Position numbers and translations under genes: made by a program
Notes under the pieces: model-generated
Told to the model about the DNA's origin: nothing
The model's input: only the letters and a program-made list of their open reading frames with translations
Database searches by the model: none
Part shown: positions 40,676 to 50,801 of the stretch, piece by piece
Layout of the letters: every line of letters starts with the position of its first letter
Position numbering within the stretch: the first letter of the stretch is position 1
Assembly (NCBI GenBank): GCA_002163135.1
Contig: MAAN01000022.1
Coordinates: forward strand, 1 to 64,000
From: Alphaproteobacteria bacterium 46_93_T64
GTDB taxonomy: Bacteria > Pseudomonadota > Alphaproteobacteria > Sneathiellales > Sneathiellaceae
Direction: 5' to 3'
DNA length: 64,000 nucleotides

Positions 40676-41872
40676 ATGTTAAATTCAGAATCCCGCTCCT
40701 TTGATGTTGTTGTCATTGGTGCAGGTGCGGCAGGAATGATGTGCGCCATAGAAGCAGGAAAACGGGGCCGGTCGGTTCTGCTTCTTGAAAAGACAGATAA
40801 ACCGGGCAAAAAAATTCTAATCTCTGGTGGTGGTCGATGTAACTTCACCAACTTGTTTGCAGCACCAGACCGATATGTTTCTGATAACAAGCACTTTTGT
40901 AAATCAGCCCTGCGTAGTTATACGCAGAACGATTTTATAGCACTGATTGAAAAGCATGGTATTGCGTATCATGAAAAGAAATTAGGCCAATTGTTTTGTG
41001 ACAAAAGTGCCTCGGGAATTACTGAGTTACTACTGGATGAGTGTGACACTACAGGTGTGACCTTATGGTGTGATGCTGGAGCAGAGAGTATCTCCAAAAA
41101 CGAAAATAGTGTTTTTGAGCTAGTAGTTGGAAGGCAGAAGGTTCAAGCAAGTTCAATCGTTATTGCAAGCGGCGGATTGTCGATCCCGAAAATGGGAGCA
41201 AATGATTTCGCGTACCGAATTGCAAAAAACTACGGCATGAAAATGACGACGCCACGGCCGGGATTGGTTCCCTTTACGTTTGAGCCTTCGGACATGGATC
41301 GCTTCGCAGACCTTACCGGAATATCAGCAGATGTGCTGGTGAAAATTGGAAAAGTATCCTTTCGCGAAAATGTTCTATTCACGCACCGGGGGGTAAGTGG
41401 TCCTGCAATATTGCAAATCTCCTCCTTTTGGAAGCTGGGTGATACTGTTCAAATCGATTTTCTGCCAGACACAAATCTTATGGAGGACTTGCAGCGGTTG
41501 AGGCGTGAAACTCCTAAAAACGGTGTCAAAAAATATCTATTACAGCTTTTGTCTAACCGCTTGATGGAAAAGCTTTTGGAGAATGTAGGAGAGCTCCCTG
41601 AGTTTGGAAATTGCTCAGACAAATTGTTTGAGAAGATAGTTAAAGGCATCAAAAATATTGAAATTACCCCGAACGGAACAGAGGGGTACCGCAAAGCCGA
41701 GGTCACTGTCGGCGGAATTTGTACGAGCGAATTAAGTTCTAAAACAATGGAAGCAAAGAAGGTTGCGGGACTTTATTTCATTGGCGAGGCTGTAGATGTG
41801 ACTGGTTTTTTGGGGGGCTATAATTTCCAATGGGCTTGGTCTTCAGGCTTTGCAGCAGGGCAGTATGTTTGA
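40676..41872 (+). CDS. NAD(P)/FAD-dependent oxidoreductase, HI0933/YhiN family
   Basis: A 398-residue flavoprotein. The dinucleotide-binding motif VVVIGAGAAGMMCAIEAGK lies at about residues 11-29, and KILISGGGRCNFTN and GEAVDVTGFLGGYNFQWAWSSGFAAGQ are signatures of the HI0933/YhiN family. The reaction is not established. It follows mutL by 21 bases and overlaps the PhyH-type gene by 8 bases, so it belongs to the pgi-mutL-flavoprotein-PhyH run. Confidence 0.85.
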   Translation: MLNSESRSFDVVVIGAGAAGMMCAIEAGKRGRSVLLLEKTDKPGKKILISGGGRCNFTNLFAAPDRYVSDNKHFCKSALRSYTQNDFIALIEKHGIAYHEKKLGQLFCDKSASGITELLLDECDTTGVTLWCDAGAESISKNENSVFELVVGRQKVQASSIVIASGGLSIPKMGANDFAYRIAKNYGMKMTTPRPGLVPFTFEPSDMDRFADLTGISADVLVKIGKVSFRENVLFTHRGVSGPAILQISSFWKLGDTVQIDFLPDTNLMEDLQRLRRETPKNGVKKYLLQLLSNRLMEKLLENVGELPEFGNCSDKLFEKIVKGIKNIEITPNGTEGYRKAEVTVGGICTSELSSKTMEAKKVAGLYFIGEAVDVTGFLGGYNFQWAWSSGFAAGQYV

Positions 41873-42683
41873 TCTTACTGCGGCTGAGTGGCGTGGCATT
41901 TGCCCTGATTTGAGTGTTGGGCAAGAGGTTGCTGCTGATGAAATCGTTTTTAAACTATCAGAGCTAGATTCCATTGCAGATCAATTTTGGAAAAATGGTT
42001 ATTTGAACCTTGCGCCGCAATTCGATGCAGTTGAAATCAACACATTGATATCAGGCTTGGAGGCCCTCAAAGACCATAATATTCCTCCAGTTTTTATATA
42101 CATTTTTGATCAGCCTTGGGCATTGTTTGAGAAACTTCGGCATTTGGTTCAACATTTTTTGGGCCAAGAATATGCACTTCTCCCAAATTTTTGGGCGTGG
42201 CATTTGACTGAAACCGGCCAAACGGGGTGGCCACCCCACCGTGATTGCGATGCGGAAACGGTTTTTGACATCGGGTCCGACAAAATGTTGATGAGTTTAT
42301 CTTTATGGATACCGCTGAACGATGTGGATAAAGATAATGGCTGTATGTATGTGATCGGGCGCCAACAAGAAGAGCAACTTTCAAAAGATATCAAGCTAGA
42401 AAAAGAGGCATTGCGACCCTACGCTACACCGCTCTCAGCTAAAGCAGGTTCTGTGCTAGGCTGGCCGCAAGATCTAGTCCACTGGGGAGGAGAATTTACT
42501 GAAAAAGCAAAATCTCCCCGAATGAGTCTGTCTTTTGAGTTTCAGAACTCTTCATTCGATCCGCTAATAGCTCCATTTCTTGATACTGGAAAGCCACCTG
42601 TGTTTGAGGAGAGACTAATCTTGCTAAAGGCACAGTTTGAGAAGTATCGACATATTGATCCGGGATTACGCTCTACTATTTAG
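41865..42683 (+). CDS. Phytanoyl-CoA dioxygenase (PhyH) family protein
   Basis: A 272-residue Fe(II)/2-oxoglutarate-dependent dioxygenase. The iron triad is visible: His125 and Asp127 in PPHRDCD and the distal His206 in DLVHWGGEF, with Arg219 (SPRMSLSFEF) as the 2-oxoglutarate anchor. The family hydroxylates acyl-CoAs, amino acids and many small molecules; the substrate is not predictable. I chose the ATG at 41865, overlapping the upstream stop by 8 bases; a TTG at 41850 is possible but less likely. It converges on rsmD with a 4-base overlap. Confidence 0.85.
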   Translation: MFDLTAAEWRGICPDLSVGQEVAADEIVFKLSELDSIADQFWKNGYLNLAPQFDAVEINTLISGLEALKDHNIPPVFIYIFDQPWALFEKLRHLVQHFLGQEYALLPNFWAWHLTETGQTGWPPHRDCDAETVFDIGSDKMLMSLSLWIPLNDVDKDNGCMYVIGRQQEEQLSKDIKLEKEALRPYATPLSAKAGSVLGWPQDLVHWGGEFTEKAKSPRMSLSFEFQNSSFDPLIAPFLDTGKPPVFEERLILLKAQFEKYRHIDPGLRSTI

Positions 42684-45140: not shown

Positions 45141-45599
45141 ATGGATTTTGAAATAACGAACTACATGGAAGACGCGCTGCATACAGCGGAACTTTCGGCC
45201 CATCGGGGGGAAGTTCCTGTTGGTGCCATAATTGTAGACACGAAAACAGGCAGGATTATCGCAAAGACCGGTAATCAGATGATTGGTCGGCATGATCCAA
45301 CAGCTCATGCAGAAATGCTTGCAATCCGCGCTGCAGCCAATATGGTTGGAAGCCAGAGATTGGTCGATTGCGACATGTATGTAACTTTGGAACCCTGCCC
45401 TATGTGCGCGGCAGCGATTTCTTTAGCCCGTATCCGCAGACTTTATTTCGGTGCGTTTGATCCGAAAGGCGGCGGTGTGGAATATGGTCCTCGGATATTT
45501 GATCAATCCACGTGCCACCACAAACCCGAAATATACGGGGGAATTGGCGAAGAACAGGCAAGCCAACAATTAAAAGAATTTTTTGCCTCCCGGCGATAA
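45141..45599 (+). CDS. tadA: tRNA adenosine(34) deaminase
   Basis: A 152-residue zinc deaminase that converts A34 to inosine in tRNA-Arg(ACG). Zinc and catalytic residues are HAE (His56, Glu58) and PCPMC (Cys86, Cys89). The segment FDPKGGGVEYGPRIF near 113-127 and the C-terminal IGEEQASQQLKEFFASRR helix match TadA. It is divergent from the GATase gene and stands 42 bases before the acyl-CoA dehydrogenase gene. Confidence 0.93.
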   Translation: MDFEITNYMEDALHTAELSAHRGEVPVGAIIVDTKTGRIIAKTGNQMIGRHDPTAHAEMLAIRAAANMVGSQRLVDCDMYVTLEPCPMCAAAISLARIRRLYFGAFDPKGGGVEYGPRIFDQSTCHHKPEIYGGIGEEQASQQLKEFFASRR

Positions 45600-45641: not shown

Positions 45642-46844
45642 ATGAATTTCGAATATTCCGATAAAGTCAAAGAACTCCAAGAACGTGTGCAAGCTTTCAT
45701 GGATGAACATATTTATCCGAATGAAGATTTGTTTTACGAGCAAGTAAACGAAGGCGATCGGTGGGAGCCGACAGCTATTCTTGAAGAACTTAAACTCAAA
45801 GCAAAAGAAGCAGGCCTTTGGAATCTTTTCCTACCAGAAAGTGATCTGGGCGCTGGACTTACGAATCTGGAATACGCCCCCCTCTGTGAAATCATGGGCC
45901 GGGTTTCATTTGCACCTGAAGTATTTAACTGCGCAGCGCCAGATACTGGAAACATGGAAGTGTTTGAACGCTATGCAAGTGAAGAGCTGAAAGAGCGTTG
46001 GTTGAAGCCACTTCTCAATGGTGAAATTCGTTCTGCTTTTGCGATGACAGAGCCCGCAGTTGCGTCTTCTGATGCGACAAACATTGAATCAGACATTACA
46101 CGTGACGGCGATGAATATGTCATCAACGGCACGAAGTGGTGGACTTCCGGTGCGATGGATCCTCGCTGTAAAGTGCTGATTTTCATGGGTAAAACTGATA
46201 AAAGCGCGTCGATTTATAATCAGCAGTCAATGATTGTGGTTCCAATGGATACCCCGGGTATTAACGTAAAACGGTTCCTTCCTGTATTTGGTTATGATCA
46301 TGCTCCGCATGGTCATGCTGAAGTTGAGTTTAAAAACGTTCGCGTCCCAGCGGATCATATTCTGCTTGGCGAAGGTCGCGGTTTTGAAATAGCACAAGGA
46401 CGGCTTGGCCCTGGCCGTATTCACCATTGCATGCGTCTTATCGGTGTTGCAGAACGTGCGCTTGAAAAATTGTGTATTCGCGTTCAAAGCCGTGTTGCTT
46501 TTGGCAAGAAAGTTTCAGAACAGACTGTTACTTTGGAGCGCATTGCAGAATCCCGTGGGATGATTGAACAAGCTCGTCTTTTGACGCTTAAAGCGGCATA
46601 CATGATGGACACAGTTGGCAACAAAAAAGCGAAAGCGGAAATTGCCATGATCAAAGTTATCGCGCCAAATATGGCTTGCCAAATCATTGATTGGGCAATC
46701 CAGGCCCATGGTGGTGGCGGTGTTACAAGTGACTTTGGTTTAGCATCAGCCTATGCCGGCGCACGTACTTTGCGTCTTGCAGATGGTCCGGATGAAGTTC
46801 ATCGCAACCAAATCGGACGCTTGGAACTTAAGAAATACAGCTAA
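45642..46844 (+). CDS. Acyl-CoA dehydrogenase, ACAD11-like
   Basis: A 400-residue flavoprotein dehydrogenase. The N-terminal helical domain starts [26 protein letters not shown]. The substrate/FAD region has [14 protein letters not shown] and [11 protein letters not shown], and the C-terminus ends [21 protein letters not shown]. The style (length, PDEVH ending) matches ACAD10/11-type rather than the short-chain mitochondrial enzymes. AAGGAAGCGTC before the ATG is a good ribosome site. Two APH-family kinases are encoded just downstream on the other strand, the same two activities that are fused in ACAD10/ACAD11. Confidence 0.9.
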
Positions 46845-46851
46845 GTTAATT

Positions 46852-46870
46852 TGCCCGGCTTGCTGGGCGA
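46852..46870. repeat. Small hairpin after the acyl-CoA dehydrogenase gene
   Basis: GCCCGGC and GCTGGGC around TT form a stem with one G-T pair. No T-run follows, so it is probably not a terminator by itself. Confidence 0.3.
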
Positions 46871-46888
46871 GCTAATAATTAATGAAGG

Positions 46889-46920
46889 AGCCTCTGCCGG
46901 TGCAGAGGCTTTTTCTTTGC
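46889..46920 (+). terminator. Rho-independent terminator of the acyl-CoA dehydrogenase gene
   Basis: AGCCTCTGC and GCAGAGGCT form a perfect 9-bp stem with a 4-base loop, followed by TTTTCTTT. It shows that the next small gene starts after it, at 46984, not at the upstream in-frame ATG. Confidence 0.88.
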
Positions 46921-46983
46921 ATCAGGGCAATTGCTCTTATATACATGCGAACTCTAGTTCGTGTTTTTGAAAGTCACTATATT

Positions 46984-47214
46984 ATGTTCAAGACAGTTGG
47001 TTGGGTAGTCTTAGCGATTATCATTGTAATCGTCGGCTTCCAGTATCAATACGAAAGTCTTGATCCTTGCGAATGGATGACACAGGAAATAGCGATGAGC
47101 GCTGGCATCCCGGGCGTAAGTGGCCTTGGCAGCACTGCGGGTGCGATGATGGGCAAAGGTGAATGCCTTCAAAACTGGATGGACCTTCGGGTCAAAGGTG
47201 CAGAAAGCCAATAG
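46984..47214 (+). CDS. Small single-pass membrane protein with two conserved-looking Cys
   Basis: A 76-residue protein with no named family that I recognise. One membrane segment (VGWVVLAIIIVIVGF, about residues 4-18) is followed by a periplasmic tail. Two Cys residues sit in DPCEW and GECLQNW and could form a disulfide. The region between is Gly/Ala/Ser-rich. The open frame begins at 46882, but that ATG lies inside the terminator stem of the gene before it. It converges on the first kinase gene. Confidence 0.6.
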   Translation: MFKTVGWVVLAIIIVIVGFQYQYESLDPCEWMTQEIAMSAGIPGVSGLGSTAGAMMGKGECLQNWMDLRVKGAESQ

Positions 47215-47260
47215 GCCGGGAAAAACCCAGCCTATATAATCTAGCATTTTACTGACATGC

Positions 47261-48307
47261 TTACGCTTTCAGGATGCTCTTAGCCCCTAAATCAGACAAC
47301 ATTGTTGCAAAAGCAGCATAGGTTTTTGCACGATCAGAACTTGCATTACCATCAAGTCCTCGTTTGTAAACACCTTGGACAATCGCAGCTAATCGGAAAA
47401 ACGAGAAGGCGATGTAGAACGGCCAATTGTCGATACCATCGCGTCCCGTTCGTTTGCAATATGCCTCGATATAGGCTTGTTCAGATGGTATCCCGCTGGC
47501 TTCATAATTTGTGGTTACCAACCCACCGGACGATGGGTGCATGAAATGGTAGGTCATGCAGTTATAGGCGAGATCTGCCAACGGATGTCCGAGGGTACAA
47601 AGTTCCCAATCCAGCACTGCAACGACCTCGGGCTTTGTTGGATGAATAATCATGTTTTCCAAGCGATAATCGCCATGGCAAATAGTGTTGACGAGATCTT
47701 TTGGCATATTTTGAGGAAGCCATTCGATCAGTTTTTCCATAGTTGGAACAACTTCGGTCTCAGACGCTCGATATTGCTTGGTCCATCGCCCGATTTGCCG
47801 CTCAAAATAATTTCCCTGTTTGCCAAAGTCCGTCAGTCCAGCTGCTTCGACATCAACATTGTGCATTTTTGCCAACGTATCATTCATCGCATCGTAGATG
47901 GCAGACCGCTCAGTCGCATCCATTCCAGGGAGTTCAGGCTTGCGCAGGATCCGTCCTTCTACTTTTTCCATAACGTAGAACGGCGTCCCGATAACTTCCG
48001 AGTCTTCACATAGGCTGTATGTTTTAGCGACAGGCACATCTGTATCTTGCAACGCTGACATGATGCGGTATTCACGCTCTACCGCATGGGCGGAAGGCAA
48101 AAGGATCCCCGGAGGTTTCTTCCGCATGACATAGTCCTGATCCGGTGTATGGAGCAGAAAAGTTGGATTTGACTGACCGCCTTCAAATTGGCTGACACTC
48201 AGCGGGCCAGAATAACCGTCGACATTGTCTTGCATATAGGCCACAAGGCTGCCCTCGTCAAACTTGTGGGCATCCCGAACTGCAGTGATTTCTGCATCAT
48301 CAGCCAT
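47261..48307 (-). CDS. APH-family phosphotransferase, ACAD11-kinase-like (1)
   Basis: A 348-residue kinase-fold protein. The catalytic loop is HGDYRLEN at residues 211-218 and the metal-binding motif is DWE at 233-235, followed by LGHPLADLAY. The segment GGQSNPTFLL near 43-52 and RKKPPG near 62-67 are typical of the ACAD10/11 kinase domain and of LvaA-type kinases, which phosphorylate a 4-hydroxyacyl-CoA so that a dehydrogenase partner can remove the phosphate. An antibiotic-resistance role is unlikely. It is 34 bases downstream of its paralogue. Confidence 0.87.
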   Translation of the reverse strand: MADDAEITAVRDAHKFDEGSLVAYMQDNVDGYSGPLSVSQFEGGQSNPTFLLHTPDQDYVMRKKPPGILLPSAHAVEREYRIMSALQDTDVPVAKTYSLCEDSEVIGTPFYVMEKVEGRILRKPELPGMDATERSAIYDAMNDTLAKMHNVDVEAAGLTDFGKQGNYFERQIGRWTKQYRASETEVVPTMEKLIEWLPQNMPKDLVNTICHGDYRLENMIIHPTKPEVVAVLDWELCTLGHPLADLAYNCMTYHFMHPSSGGLVTTNYEASGIPSEQAYIEAYCKRTGRDGIDNWPFYIAFSFFRLAAIVQGVYKRGLDGNASSDRAKTYAAFATMLSDLGAKSILKA

Positions 48308-48341
48308 GGAGTTTCCTTTGCTCTTTTGTTTTGTTGGTTGG

Positions 48342-49409
48342 CTATTTATTTAAAATTAACTCTACTTGTTCCCAGCCTTTTAGCGCAAGCGGTTTGGCAC
48401 GTTGCCCCATATCCTTAGCATGCTGGCTAGAGGCGGTTCCATCGACAACTCGGCCCATGATACCTTGCAAAATGGCGGAAAGGCGGAACATATTATACGC
48501 CATGTAGAAATCCCAATTGGCGATACTGTCACGCCCCGTACGCTCGCAATAAAGATCTACATACTCTTCTTCGGTTGGAATACCAAGAGATGGCAAATCC
48601 AGCCCTTTGAGGCCTCTGAACAGTTCAGGCTCTAACCGCCAAGTCATACAATGATACGAAAAATCAGCAAGTGGATGGCCCAAAGTCGAAAGTTCCCAGT
48701 CGAGAATAGCAATGACTTCTTTGCTGCCTCGGTCAATGATGGTGTTATCCAAGCGATAATCGCCATGAACTATTGATGTTTCATCTCCATCAGGAATATT
48801 TTGTGGTAGCCATTCCATAAGATTGTTCATAGCGTCGATGTTTTCGGTTTCAGACGCCTTATACTGTTTGGTCCAGCGATTAATCTGACGCGAAAGGTAG
48901 TCAGTTGGTTTGCCAAACCCTTCGAGACCAGCGGCTTTGTAATCTACTTGATGTAATTTCGCGATTGCCCCGTTCATGGAATTAAAGGCGGCAAATCGTT
49001 CTTTGTTATTCAAGTGGGGAAGGGCCGGGTCCCATTCGATATCACCATCCACAAAATCCATTATATAGAATATTGTACCGACAATAGTTTCATCCATGCA
49101 TAGGCAATAAGTACGCGGAACAGGAACGCCTGATCCTTGAAGGCCGGTCAGAACCTTGTATTCACGATCTACAGCGTGAGCAGAGGGTAGCAATTTTCCG
49201 GGAGGTTTTTTGCGAAGAACATATTTTTTTGTAGGGGTTACCAGAAAATAACTGGGGTTTGATTGTCCTCCTTTAAACTGACGAATCTCTAACGGACCTT
49301 CAAACTCATCCACATGTTTTGACATGTAGGCTTCAAGGATAGTTGTGTCGATCTTGTGTCGCTCTTGAACATCCATTGTCCCTGAAAAGTCGGAAGATGA
49401 GTTTGTCAT
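48342..49409 (-). CDS. APH-family phosphotransferase, ACAD11-kinase-like (2)
   Basis: A 355-residue paralogue of the preceding gene with the same plan: FKGGQSNPSYFL near residue 46, RKKPPG at 66-71, HGDYRLDN at 215-222 and DWE at 237-239. The similarity over the full length (LGHPLADF, CERTGRDSI) marks a tandem duplication. Both copies keep all catalytic residues, so both are probably active. It lies 17 bases downstream of purD's stop, in the same direction, so purD transcription may run into it. Confidence 0.87.
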   Translation of the reverse strand: MTNSSSDFSGTMDVQERHKIDTTILEAYMSKHVDEFEGPLEIRQFKGGQSNPSYFLVTPTKKYVLRKKPPGKLLPSAHAVDREYKVLTGLQGSGVPVPRTYCLCMDETIVGTIFYIMDFVDGDIEWDPALPHLNNKERFAAFNSMNGAIAKLHQVDYKAAGLEGFGKPTDYLSRQINRWTKQYKASETENIDAMNNLMEWLPQNIPDGDETSIVHGDYRLDNTIIDRGSKEVIAILDWELSTLGHPLADFSYHCMTWRLEPELFRGLKGLDLPSLGIPTEEEYVDLYCERTGRDSIANWDFYMAYNMFRLSAILQGIMGRVVDGTASSQHAKDMGQRAKPLALKGWEQVELILNK

Positions 49410-49426: not shown

Positions 49427-50704
49427 TTATTTTTCTTCGCGCGCGATAGCTCTCCAGCCGATATCGGAACGGCAGAAACCATCAGGCCAGTTTATTTTAT
49501 TAATTGCGCTGTAGGCTATTTTTTGTGCTTCGGTAACGCTTTTCCCAGTCGCCGTAATGCCCAGAACGCGCCCGCCAGTTGAGAGAATTTTCTGATCTAC
49601 CTTTTTAGTACCAGCATGCAAGACCGTTACACCATCCATTTCGTTCGCTTCTGCCAAGCCACCAATTTCGGTGTTCTTAACGTAGGCATCAGGGTAGCCA
49701 TTTGCAGCCATCACGACCACCAAAGCCGCTTCGTCTTTCCATGAAACGGATACGCCAGACAGGTTTCCGTTCGCAGTTGCCCGAAGAGCAGGCAAAATAT
49801 CACTGTTGAGGCGGGCACATAGAACTTGAGTTTCCGGGTCGCCAAAACGGACATTATATTCGATTAGTTTTGGACCGTCTTCGGTGATCATGAGGCCCGC
49901 ATATAGAACGCCAGTATAGGGTGTGCCGCGTGCTGCCATCGCAGCGACAGTTGGTTTGATGATTGTCTCCAATGTGGTCTGGATCATTTCATCAGTCATA
50001 ACAGGTGCAGGTGAATAGGCACCCATACCCCCAGTATTCGGTCCGGTATCACCATCACCAACGGCCTTGTGGTCTTGCGCTGTGGCTAGTGGGAGAATGT
50101 CAGTTCCGTCAGTCAAAACAAAGAAACTGGCTTCTTCACCTTGCATAAATTCTTCAATAACGATTTCGGCACCGGCGCCGCCAAATTTTCCTCCGAGAAT
50201 GTCATCAACAGTTGCCTCTGCCTCTGCCATGCTTGTTGGAATTATGACGCCTTTACCCGCAGCAAGGCCATCGGCCTTAATTACAACAGGTATGGATTGT
50301 GTTTTAAGATATTCTTTCGCGGCTTTCGCATCTGAAAACCGCTCGTATGCAGCGGTTGGAATATCAAATTCACGGCAAAGGTCTTTCATGAAACCTTTCG
50401 ATCCTTCAAGCGCAGCGGCGTTTGCACGTGGACCAAATGCCTCAATACCTGCAGCGGCCAGATCATCTACGAGCCCGGCGACAAGCGGGGCTTCTGGGCC
50501 AACAACAACAAATTCGATAGCGTTACTTTTACAAAAATCGATTACATCGTCTGATTTTTCAGTATTCAGAGAGACACATTTTGCCACATCTTGAATGCCA
50601 CCATTACCCGGTGCACAGTAAAGAGTTTCAATTTCGGATGATTTTCCAAGCGCCCAGCAAAGCGCATGTTCACGGCCGCCAGAGCCAATTACCAATACAT
50701 TCAT
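49427..50704 (-). CDS. purD: Phosphoribosylamine-glycine ligase
   Basis: This ATP-grasp enzyme joins 5-phosphoribosylamine and glycine in purine synthesis. The product of about 425 residues starts MNVLVIGSGGREHALCWAL, and has the ATP-grasp segments VIKADGLAAGKGVI and YNVRFGDPETQ. I chose the ATG at 50704 by similarity to PurD N-termini. A GTG at 50716 has a better-placed ribosome site (AGGAAAATA) and would add 4 residues, so it cannot be excluded. It is divergent from xseA. Confidence 0.95.
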   Translation of the reverse strand: MNVLVIGSGGREHALCWALGKSSEIETLYCAPGNGGIQDVAKCVSLNTEKSDDVIDFCKSNAIEFVVVGPEAPLVAGLVDDLAAAGIEAFGPRANAAALEGSKGFMKDLCREFDIPTAAYERFSDAKAAKEYLKTQSIPVVIKADGLAAGKGVIIPTSMAEAEATVDDILGGKFGGAGAEIVIEEFMQGEEASFFVLTDGTDILPLATAQDHKAVGDGDTGPNTGGMGAYSPAPVMTDEMIQTTLETIIKPTVAAMAARGTPYTGVLYAGLMITEDGPKLIEYNVRFGDPETQVLCARLNSDILPALRATANGNLSGVSVSWKDEAALVVVMAANGYPDAYVKNTEIGGLAEANEMDGVTVLHAGTKKVDQKILSTGGRVLGITATGKSVTEAQKIAYSAINKINWPDGFCRSDIGWRAIAREEK

Positions 50705-50801
50705 TTTAAGATGCACTATTTTCCTGTTTCGTTGTCCCCGTCAGTGGGTGTAAAGTTTGTAGCATACCAACGGGACGATACAAATAATCTAAAGGCTCTA
50801 A

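Follow-up and report, generated by a model that had tools for sequence, protein, structure and literature searches.

A probable ACAD10/ACAD11-type pathway in split form, with two kinases, in Alphaproteobacteria bacterium 46_93_T64

4-Hydroxy fatty acids cannot enter beta-oxidation directly, and the presence of an acyl-CoA dehydrogenase (ACAD) gene beside two tandem kinase genes, here called K1 and K2, in Alphaproteobacteria bacterium 46_93_T64 raises the question of whether this locus serves such compounds and, if so, why it would hold two kinases. The genes lie in a 64,000-nucleotide stretch of contig MAAN01000022.1 (the window), and an earlier note on this DNA had read them as a split module of the ACAD10/ACAD11 type, made up of three open reading frames (ORFs) whose positions, strands and lengths were confirmed here (Table 1). 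Judging from sequence, we consider it very probable that the locus encodes a bacterial ACAD10/ACAD11-type pathway for 4-hydroxyacyl-CoAs in split form. Earlier publications describe the chemistry as well as both gene arrangements, split in bacteria and fused in eukaryotes; the kinase/ACAD route for 4-hydroxy fatty acids was assigned in mammals in 2024–2025 (PMC12440821, PMC11342911).

The dehydrogenase is, by its residues, of the ACAD10/11/LvaC kind, because the catalytic Asp and the phosphate-binding Arg, His and Arg are all present. Pfam recognizes the N, M and C domains of acyl-CoA dehydrogenases, and the Protein Data Bank matches are headed by 4HR3, mouse ACAD11 (8V3U/8V3V) and human ACAD11 (2WBI), with E values between 5e-138 and 2e-141; the next match stands at 1e-39. 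Mapping through the printed alignment (chain number + 1 = number used in the paper) places R254, R259, H262, R265 and D381 at R626, R631, H634, R637 and D753 of mouse ACAD11; the catalytic residue is an Asp in place of Glu, as in ACAD11, and the counterparts of the phosphate-binding R626/H634/R637 (HCMR motif) are kept as R254, H262 and R265. In ACAD11, D753 is the catalytic base, while R626, H634 and R637 touch the phosphate in a model and are the positions where non-conservative changes were most disruptive (PMC12440821). The R..H..R and Asp residues were kept in all 63 ACAD-type sequences of a set sharing 50% identity or more with the query (the query counted, identical sequences removed), three of which were missed by the first motif pattern and inspected individually. 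The window ACAD is nearer to ACAD11 than ordinary ACADs are, both by these E values and in a tree whose outgroup was three ordinary ACADs from its own genome. A Sneathiella ACAD has been named in one paper as the bacterial match nearest human LCAD.

The two kinases are paralogous and share the APH fold, as the earlier note had it: they are 51% identical over 336 residues, and Pfam APH (PF01636) matches them at E 6e-56 and 2e-50. For K1, APH scores 190 bits, the ecdysteroid-kinase-like model 31 (cut-off 22, residues 167-251) and choline kinase 25 (cut-off 29), with the NCBIfam homoserine kinase model at 21 bits against 271; for K2, APH is the sole Pfam model that passes. The best matches of both are 3DXP and ACAD11 (E 6e-80 or better), and identity to the mouse ACAD11 kinase domain is 45% for K1 and 40% for K2. 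The catalytic Asp and Asn of ACAD11 (D220, N225) correspond to D213/N218 in K1 and D217/N222 in K2, the CoA-contact Arg at the R176 position is R170 and R174, respectively, and the alpha-C Arg-Glu pair is also kept, its Arg being identified by description only. These residues are invariant in 23/23 K1-type and 34/34 K2-type rows of the kinase set, a count that omits six rows (one SAR86, four distant kinases and 9O56), with mouse ACAD11 inspected separately. Neither K1 nor K2 looks like a pseudokinase by these residues, and both are probably active kinases.

Kinase and dehydrogenase also travel together. Across 289 alphaproteobacterial genomes, four of them of this genus, the kinase was present in 110 (E <= 1e-80) and the ACAD in 115 (E <= 1e-120, at most six candidates scored per genome), using one fixed cut-off each; 107 genomes hold both, 3 the kinase only, 8 the ACAD only and 171 neither (Fisher p 4e-65, with genomes that are related and not independent). 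Among the matches listed (150 each), a kinase-ACAD pair lies within 10 kb in at least 47 of 99 genomes with both, and of at least 56 such pairs 42 are convergent, 12 on the same strand and 2 divergent. Within the family, kinases at E <= 1e-40 were found in 23 of 25 genomes and were tandem in every one (23/23), and the ACAD is convergent and near them in 21 of these 23, being on another contig in the remaining two (G015, G018); arrangements were read from coordinates, and the second kinase match is partial in one genome (G005). At that cut-off no kinases were found in G017 (56% complete) or G024 (98% complete, 580 contigs). Diagnostic residues, tight co-occurrence and conserved linkage together uphold the core of the earlier note, a split ACAD10/11-type kinase and dehydrogenase.

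The surroundings of the module are conserved as well. Neighbourhoods were counted in 79 named loci nearest K2, an uneven sample scored wherever the feature was visible. The gene purD lies directly upstream of K2 in 14/14 Sneathiella-like, 3/3 Rhodobiaceae-like and 23/24 Pelagibacteraceae loci and in 3/30 others, and a deaminase lies beside the ACAD in 16/16, 2/2, 23/23 and 1/16, respectively. Where these loci hold an ACAD it is convergent in all of them (Sneathiella-like 16/16, Rhodobiaceae-like 3/3, Pelagibacteraceae 24/24), while in the 17 other loci with an ACAD it shares the strand of the kinase in 14 and is convergent in 2. This purD, deaminase and ACAD context, common to these groups, argues for old vertical inheritance of the locus. 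Each Pelagibacteraceae locus shows one kinase at E 1e-25, and the two that were placed in the kinase tree are K2-type.

Since the residues of the ACAD and kinases match those of ACAD11 and the genes co-occur, a 4-hydroxyacyl-CoA role is likely. K1, K2 or both would use ATP to phosphorylate the 4-hydroxyl of a 4-hydroxyacyl-CoA, giving the 4-phosphoacyl-CoA, from which the ACAD, with its FAD, Asp base and R/H/R phosphate pocket, would take a proton and eliminate phosphate without net oxidation. The FAD would return to its starting state, and the 2-enoyl-CoA product would pass to beta-oxidation. This chemistry is carried over from mammalian ACAD10/11 and the Burkholderia pair, and the window proteins would be expected to act by analogy. 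In the mammalian work, free acid was not phosphorylated by ACAD10/11 (PMC12440821), and the ACAD10 kinase gave about fourfold more product from R- than from S-4-hydroxyhexanoyl-CoA (PMC11342911). The gene order on plasmid pMSHV of Sphingobium herbicidovorans is consistent with a kinase/ACAD beta-oxidation reading and lends it support, as a 3-hydroxyacyl-CoA dehydrogenase, an ACAD, a kinase and an alpha/beta hydrolase follow one another with overlapping ends; beyond the hydrolase lie a sugar phosphate isomerase/epimerase, a ferredoxin and a P450. Two further plasmids, Cupriavidus pHG1 (see below) and Tistrella pTM2, were less informative; in the latter the ACAD is followed by a gene whose annotation reads HPr kinase.

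The lva operon of Pseudomonas putida combines a kinase and an ACAD with lvaB, lvaD, lvaE and transport genes. By published description, its LvaA/LvaC share with the window a split kinase and ACAD and the same reaction logic, and LvaA is reported to be 29% identical to the ACAD10/11 kinases (PMC11342911), against 45% for K1 and 40% for K2 with mouse ACAD11. Unlike the window, the lva genes form a dedicated catabolic operon; that gene set is absent from the surroundings of the module, where the neighbours are purD, xseA, the deaminase, a peptidase C26 and a pseudouridine synthase. Mouse and human ACAD10 and ACAD11 are fused kinase-ACAD proteins, ACAD10 with an additional HAD domain, and share with the window the two domains and the mapped catalytic and phosphate-binding residues; the window differs in having separate genes on opposite strands, two kinases and no HAD domain. 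Closer in form is the Burkholderia pseudomallei system, also a split kinase and ACAD, whose orthologues were able to replace each ACAD10 domain in vitro, though one kinase is described there (PMC11342911). Burkholderiales kinases, with 3DXP grouped among them, fall in the K2 group of our kinase tree. A literature search found no description of the two-kinase arrangement, or of the module in Sneathiella or Pelagibacter, with most subscription papers outside its reach. Long frames (up to 982 aa) in the class sample were considered as candidate fused bacterial kinase-ACAD proteins and rejected: none of the seven opened loci (L134-L139, L155) holds both by tblastn, five of the seven showing a kinase or an ACAD motif and never both, and two (L136, L139) giving no match to the motif pattern.

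Several points weigh against a 4-hydroxyacyl-CoA pathway at this locus. The ACAD and kinases sit on opposite strands, and their neighbours are housekeeping genes (purD, xseA, tadA), unlike those of the lva operon. An ACAD of this kind on Cupriavidus pHG1 has no kinase among the nearby listed genes, in a gene table that is incomplete and lists no genes for 1.2 kb behind the ACAD. The R86 of the published account is off our mapped numbering, in which the Arg next to the alpha-C Glu falls at chain residue 83 (+1 = 84). Finally, truncated ACAD11 took unsubstituted long chains in earlier work cited by PMC12440821, and PMC11153573 proposes that ACAD10/11-like enzymes act on bulky compounds resembling sterols.

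If the locus is a split 4-hydroxyacyl-CoA module, the remaining question is why it has two kinases. In a careful kinase tree of 59 rows, mouse ACAD11 and the 21 K1-type rows group as a single clade (bootstrap 100, SH-aLRT 99), which sits among the K2-type rows, including Pelagibacteraceae, Burkholderiales and 3DXP, at a joining point that is weakly supported; a quick tree of 64 rows gives the same picture. All 14 tandem pairs found within 3 kb in the class sample (four from this genus) have K2 ahead of K1 in the order of reading, as judged from strands. Given this constant order, the single K1 clade and a purD-K2...ACAD-tadA context common to Pelagibacteraceae, the K2-K1 pair is, on sequence grounds, an old arrangement that did not arise by recent duplication at this locus. 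The two types differ, at 75% or more, in nine alignment positions, all of them after K1 residue 245, in the C-lobe by homology. We typed 104 genomes, among the matches listed, by the higher-scoring query (by at least 15 bits; a few matches came up with one query only), a rule of score and not of tree: 70 have a K2-type kinase, 58 a K1-type, 28 both and 4 neither. A third, more distant kinase (45% identical to K2) occurs in 3 of 24 genus genomes, and the pair of these placed in the tree (L132:7537-8532, L133:7040-8023) falls outside both K1 and K2.

The most likely reason for two kinases would be a split in substrate preference, by 4-hydroxy enantiomer, chain length or tail bulk; the different substrate ranges suggested in the earlier note are compatible with the data. 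Less likely, the two kinases would be redundant copies, serve gene dosage or form a K1-K2 heterodimer, with no division of substrates. Both kinases keep all mapped catalytic residues and are probably co-transcribed, one kinase type suffices for most of the typed genomes, and ACAD11 kinase domains are reported to dimerise via the alpha-C helix (PMC12440821). The K1 of Sneathiella glossodoripedis (L052) is split into two reading pieces, by a frame break or an assembly error. Set against this, two kinases that have diverged to 51% identity yet stay tandem in every kinase-bearing family genome (one with K1 broken), and keep the K2-K1 order in every tandem of the class sample, exceed what dosage would need, and the nine type-specific positions suggest different function.

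A wider version of the substrate-split reading is that the ancient K2-K1 pair divides substrate classes, for example enantiomers or short and long chains, that it already lay beside the ACAD early in Alphaproteobacteria, and that the ACAD11 kinase derives from the K1 side and the ACAD10 kinase from the K2 side, making the bacterial pair their split counterpart; we regard this as a long shot. At the nine type-specific positions mouse ACAD11 has the K1 letter at 5, the K2 letter at 0 and another at 4. The mouse row is a long branch that adjoins two K1 rows at 95/90, and the AU test does not reject a topology in which it falls outside them (p 0.21), so the mouse kinase could lie within K1 or be its sister group. 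We make no claim of an alphaproteobacterial (mitochondrial) origin from the kinases. Nor is such an origin of ACAD10/11 claimed from the ACAD tree, which places ACAD11 close to the base and next to 4HR3 without resolving it and carries long-branch warnings.

The earlier note had spoken of two kinases for one dehydrogenase, which holds at the locus and fails for the genome as a whole; its overall interpretation thus stands for the split-module core and not for the genome-wide count. The genome has 28 ACAD matches, the closest other being 63% identical, on contig C38 (L129:5190-6401), and the next 31%. The C38 ACAD carries the same R/H/R/Asp residues and retains ADGPDQVH and a further motif of 10 protein letters, and adjoins, in divergent orientation, a gene for a LysR-type regulator. 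Matches to this second ACAD, 61-65% identical, occur in 20/24 genus genomes, two of them with an internal stop, and an ACAD match at E <= 1e-90 was found in 25/25 family genomes searched.

It is doubtful that the module acts on some other CoA substrate, such as sterol-side-chain or other bulky hydroxyacyl-CoAs, in place of simple 4-hydroxy fatty acids. The Sphingobium cluster, with its hydrolase, ferredoxin and P450, could serve terpenoids or xenobiotics. Against bulky substrates, Pelagibacteraceae keep the kinase/ACAD pair and are not known for sterol degradation. The bulky-substrate proposal builds on a helix-breaking proline proposed to enlarge the cavity of ACAD10/11-like enzymes, with sterols as possible substrates (PMC11153573); this residue (human ACAD11 Pro463) falls in FAPEVFNC of the window ACAD, a position matched by eye, and the C38 ACAD lacks it, reading IGAEVFNC. 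The R/H/R pocket and Asp base, on the other side, are those shown to handle 4-phosphoacyl-CoA, and a head-to-head assay saw no ordinary dehydrogenation by ACAD10/11 (PMC12440821). By these scores and matches it is very improbable that K1 and K2 are common APH-type enzymes acting on antibiotics or small molecules and lie near the ACAD by chance. Pfam's top name for both is no more specific than APH, the ecdysteroid-kinase-like model passes on K1 and APH(3') models match weakly; against this, the NCBIfam APH(3') scores are 43 and 33 bits where the cut-off is 205, and the ACAD11 and 3DXP matches and the co-occurrence with the ACAD across 289 genomes also speak against chance.

Table 1. Features of the kinase-dehydrogenase locus in the window.
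Feature	Coordinates	Strand	Remarks
Deaminase, read as tadA	45141..45599	+	Pfam cytidine/MafB19-type deaminase; 42 nt upstream of ACAD
ACAD10/11/LvaC-type acyl-CoA dehydrogenase (ACAD)	45642..46844	+	ORF of 400 aa
Terminator-like hairpin and U-tract, downstream of ACAD	46884..46915	+	-23 kcal/mol, z -4.3 against shuffles
Small ORF between ACAD and K1	46945..47214	+	At most 89 aa; without Pfam match
K1, predicted ACAD11-type 4-hydroxyacyl-CoA kinase (APH fold)	47261..48307	-	ORF of 348 aa
K2, predicted second ACAD11-type kinase, K2 lineage	48342..49409	-	ORF of 355 aa
purD (phosphoribosylglycinamide synthetase)	49427..50716	-	Probable first gene of a purD-K2-K1 unit

On the plus strand the order is deaminase, ACAD, hairpin and small ORF, and transcription of the minus strand would run through purD, K2 and K1 in turn. 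As the gaps are 17 nt (purD-K2) and 34 nt (K2-K1), these three genes look like one transcription unit; the ACAD and K1 stops lie 416 nt apart. The terminator-like hairpin fits the earlier note's statement that the dehydrogenase has its own terminator. It is absent from the listing of the consensus terminator scan, probably because the stem continues into the T-run; promoter and terminator scans gave fewer sites than in shuffles and were not used as evidence. The small ORF is present in 17 of 18 named Sneathiella-like loci (48-78% identity, tblastn), and by our own reading its product is membrane-protein-like. A few genes from the module, the ORF at 41850-42683 (+) is phytanoyl-CoA dioxygenase-like (PF05721, E 2e-7). 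A PHROGs search gave no result, and in the K2 search named Sneathiella records were at most 83% identical and an uncultured alphaproteobacterial bin 89%, in keeping with a Sneathiella-like host.

The slot between K1 and the ACAD varies among relatives. Sneathiella chungangensis has there a gene for the DMSP lyase DddP (L064:10269-11597, +; NF043017, 691 bits, cut-off 600), S. litorea has an M24-family ORF in the equivalent slot (L058:10203-11594), two Pelagibacteraceae loci have an aminotransferase V, and L083 and L142 have a PAS histidine kinase and a GST.

Pelagibacteraceae (25 loci, within L092-L128) retain a kinase of this family and the ACAD in the purD...tadA context, which suggests, as far as gene content goes, 4-hydroxyacyl-CoA catabolism in these very small marine genomes. 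That Sneathiella, Pelagibacteraceae and Rhodobiaceae-like bacteria all carry the module in a conserved setting suggests that marine bacteria may often use this route. The natural K1/K2 pair would furthermore offer a clean comparison for the determinants of substrate preference in ACAD10/11 kinases.

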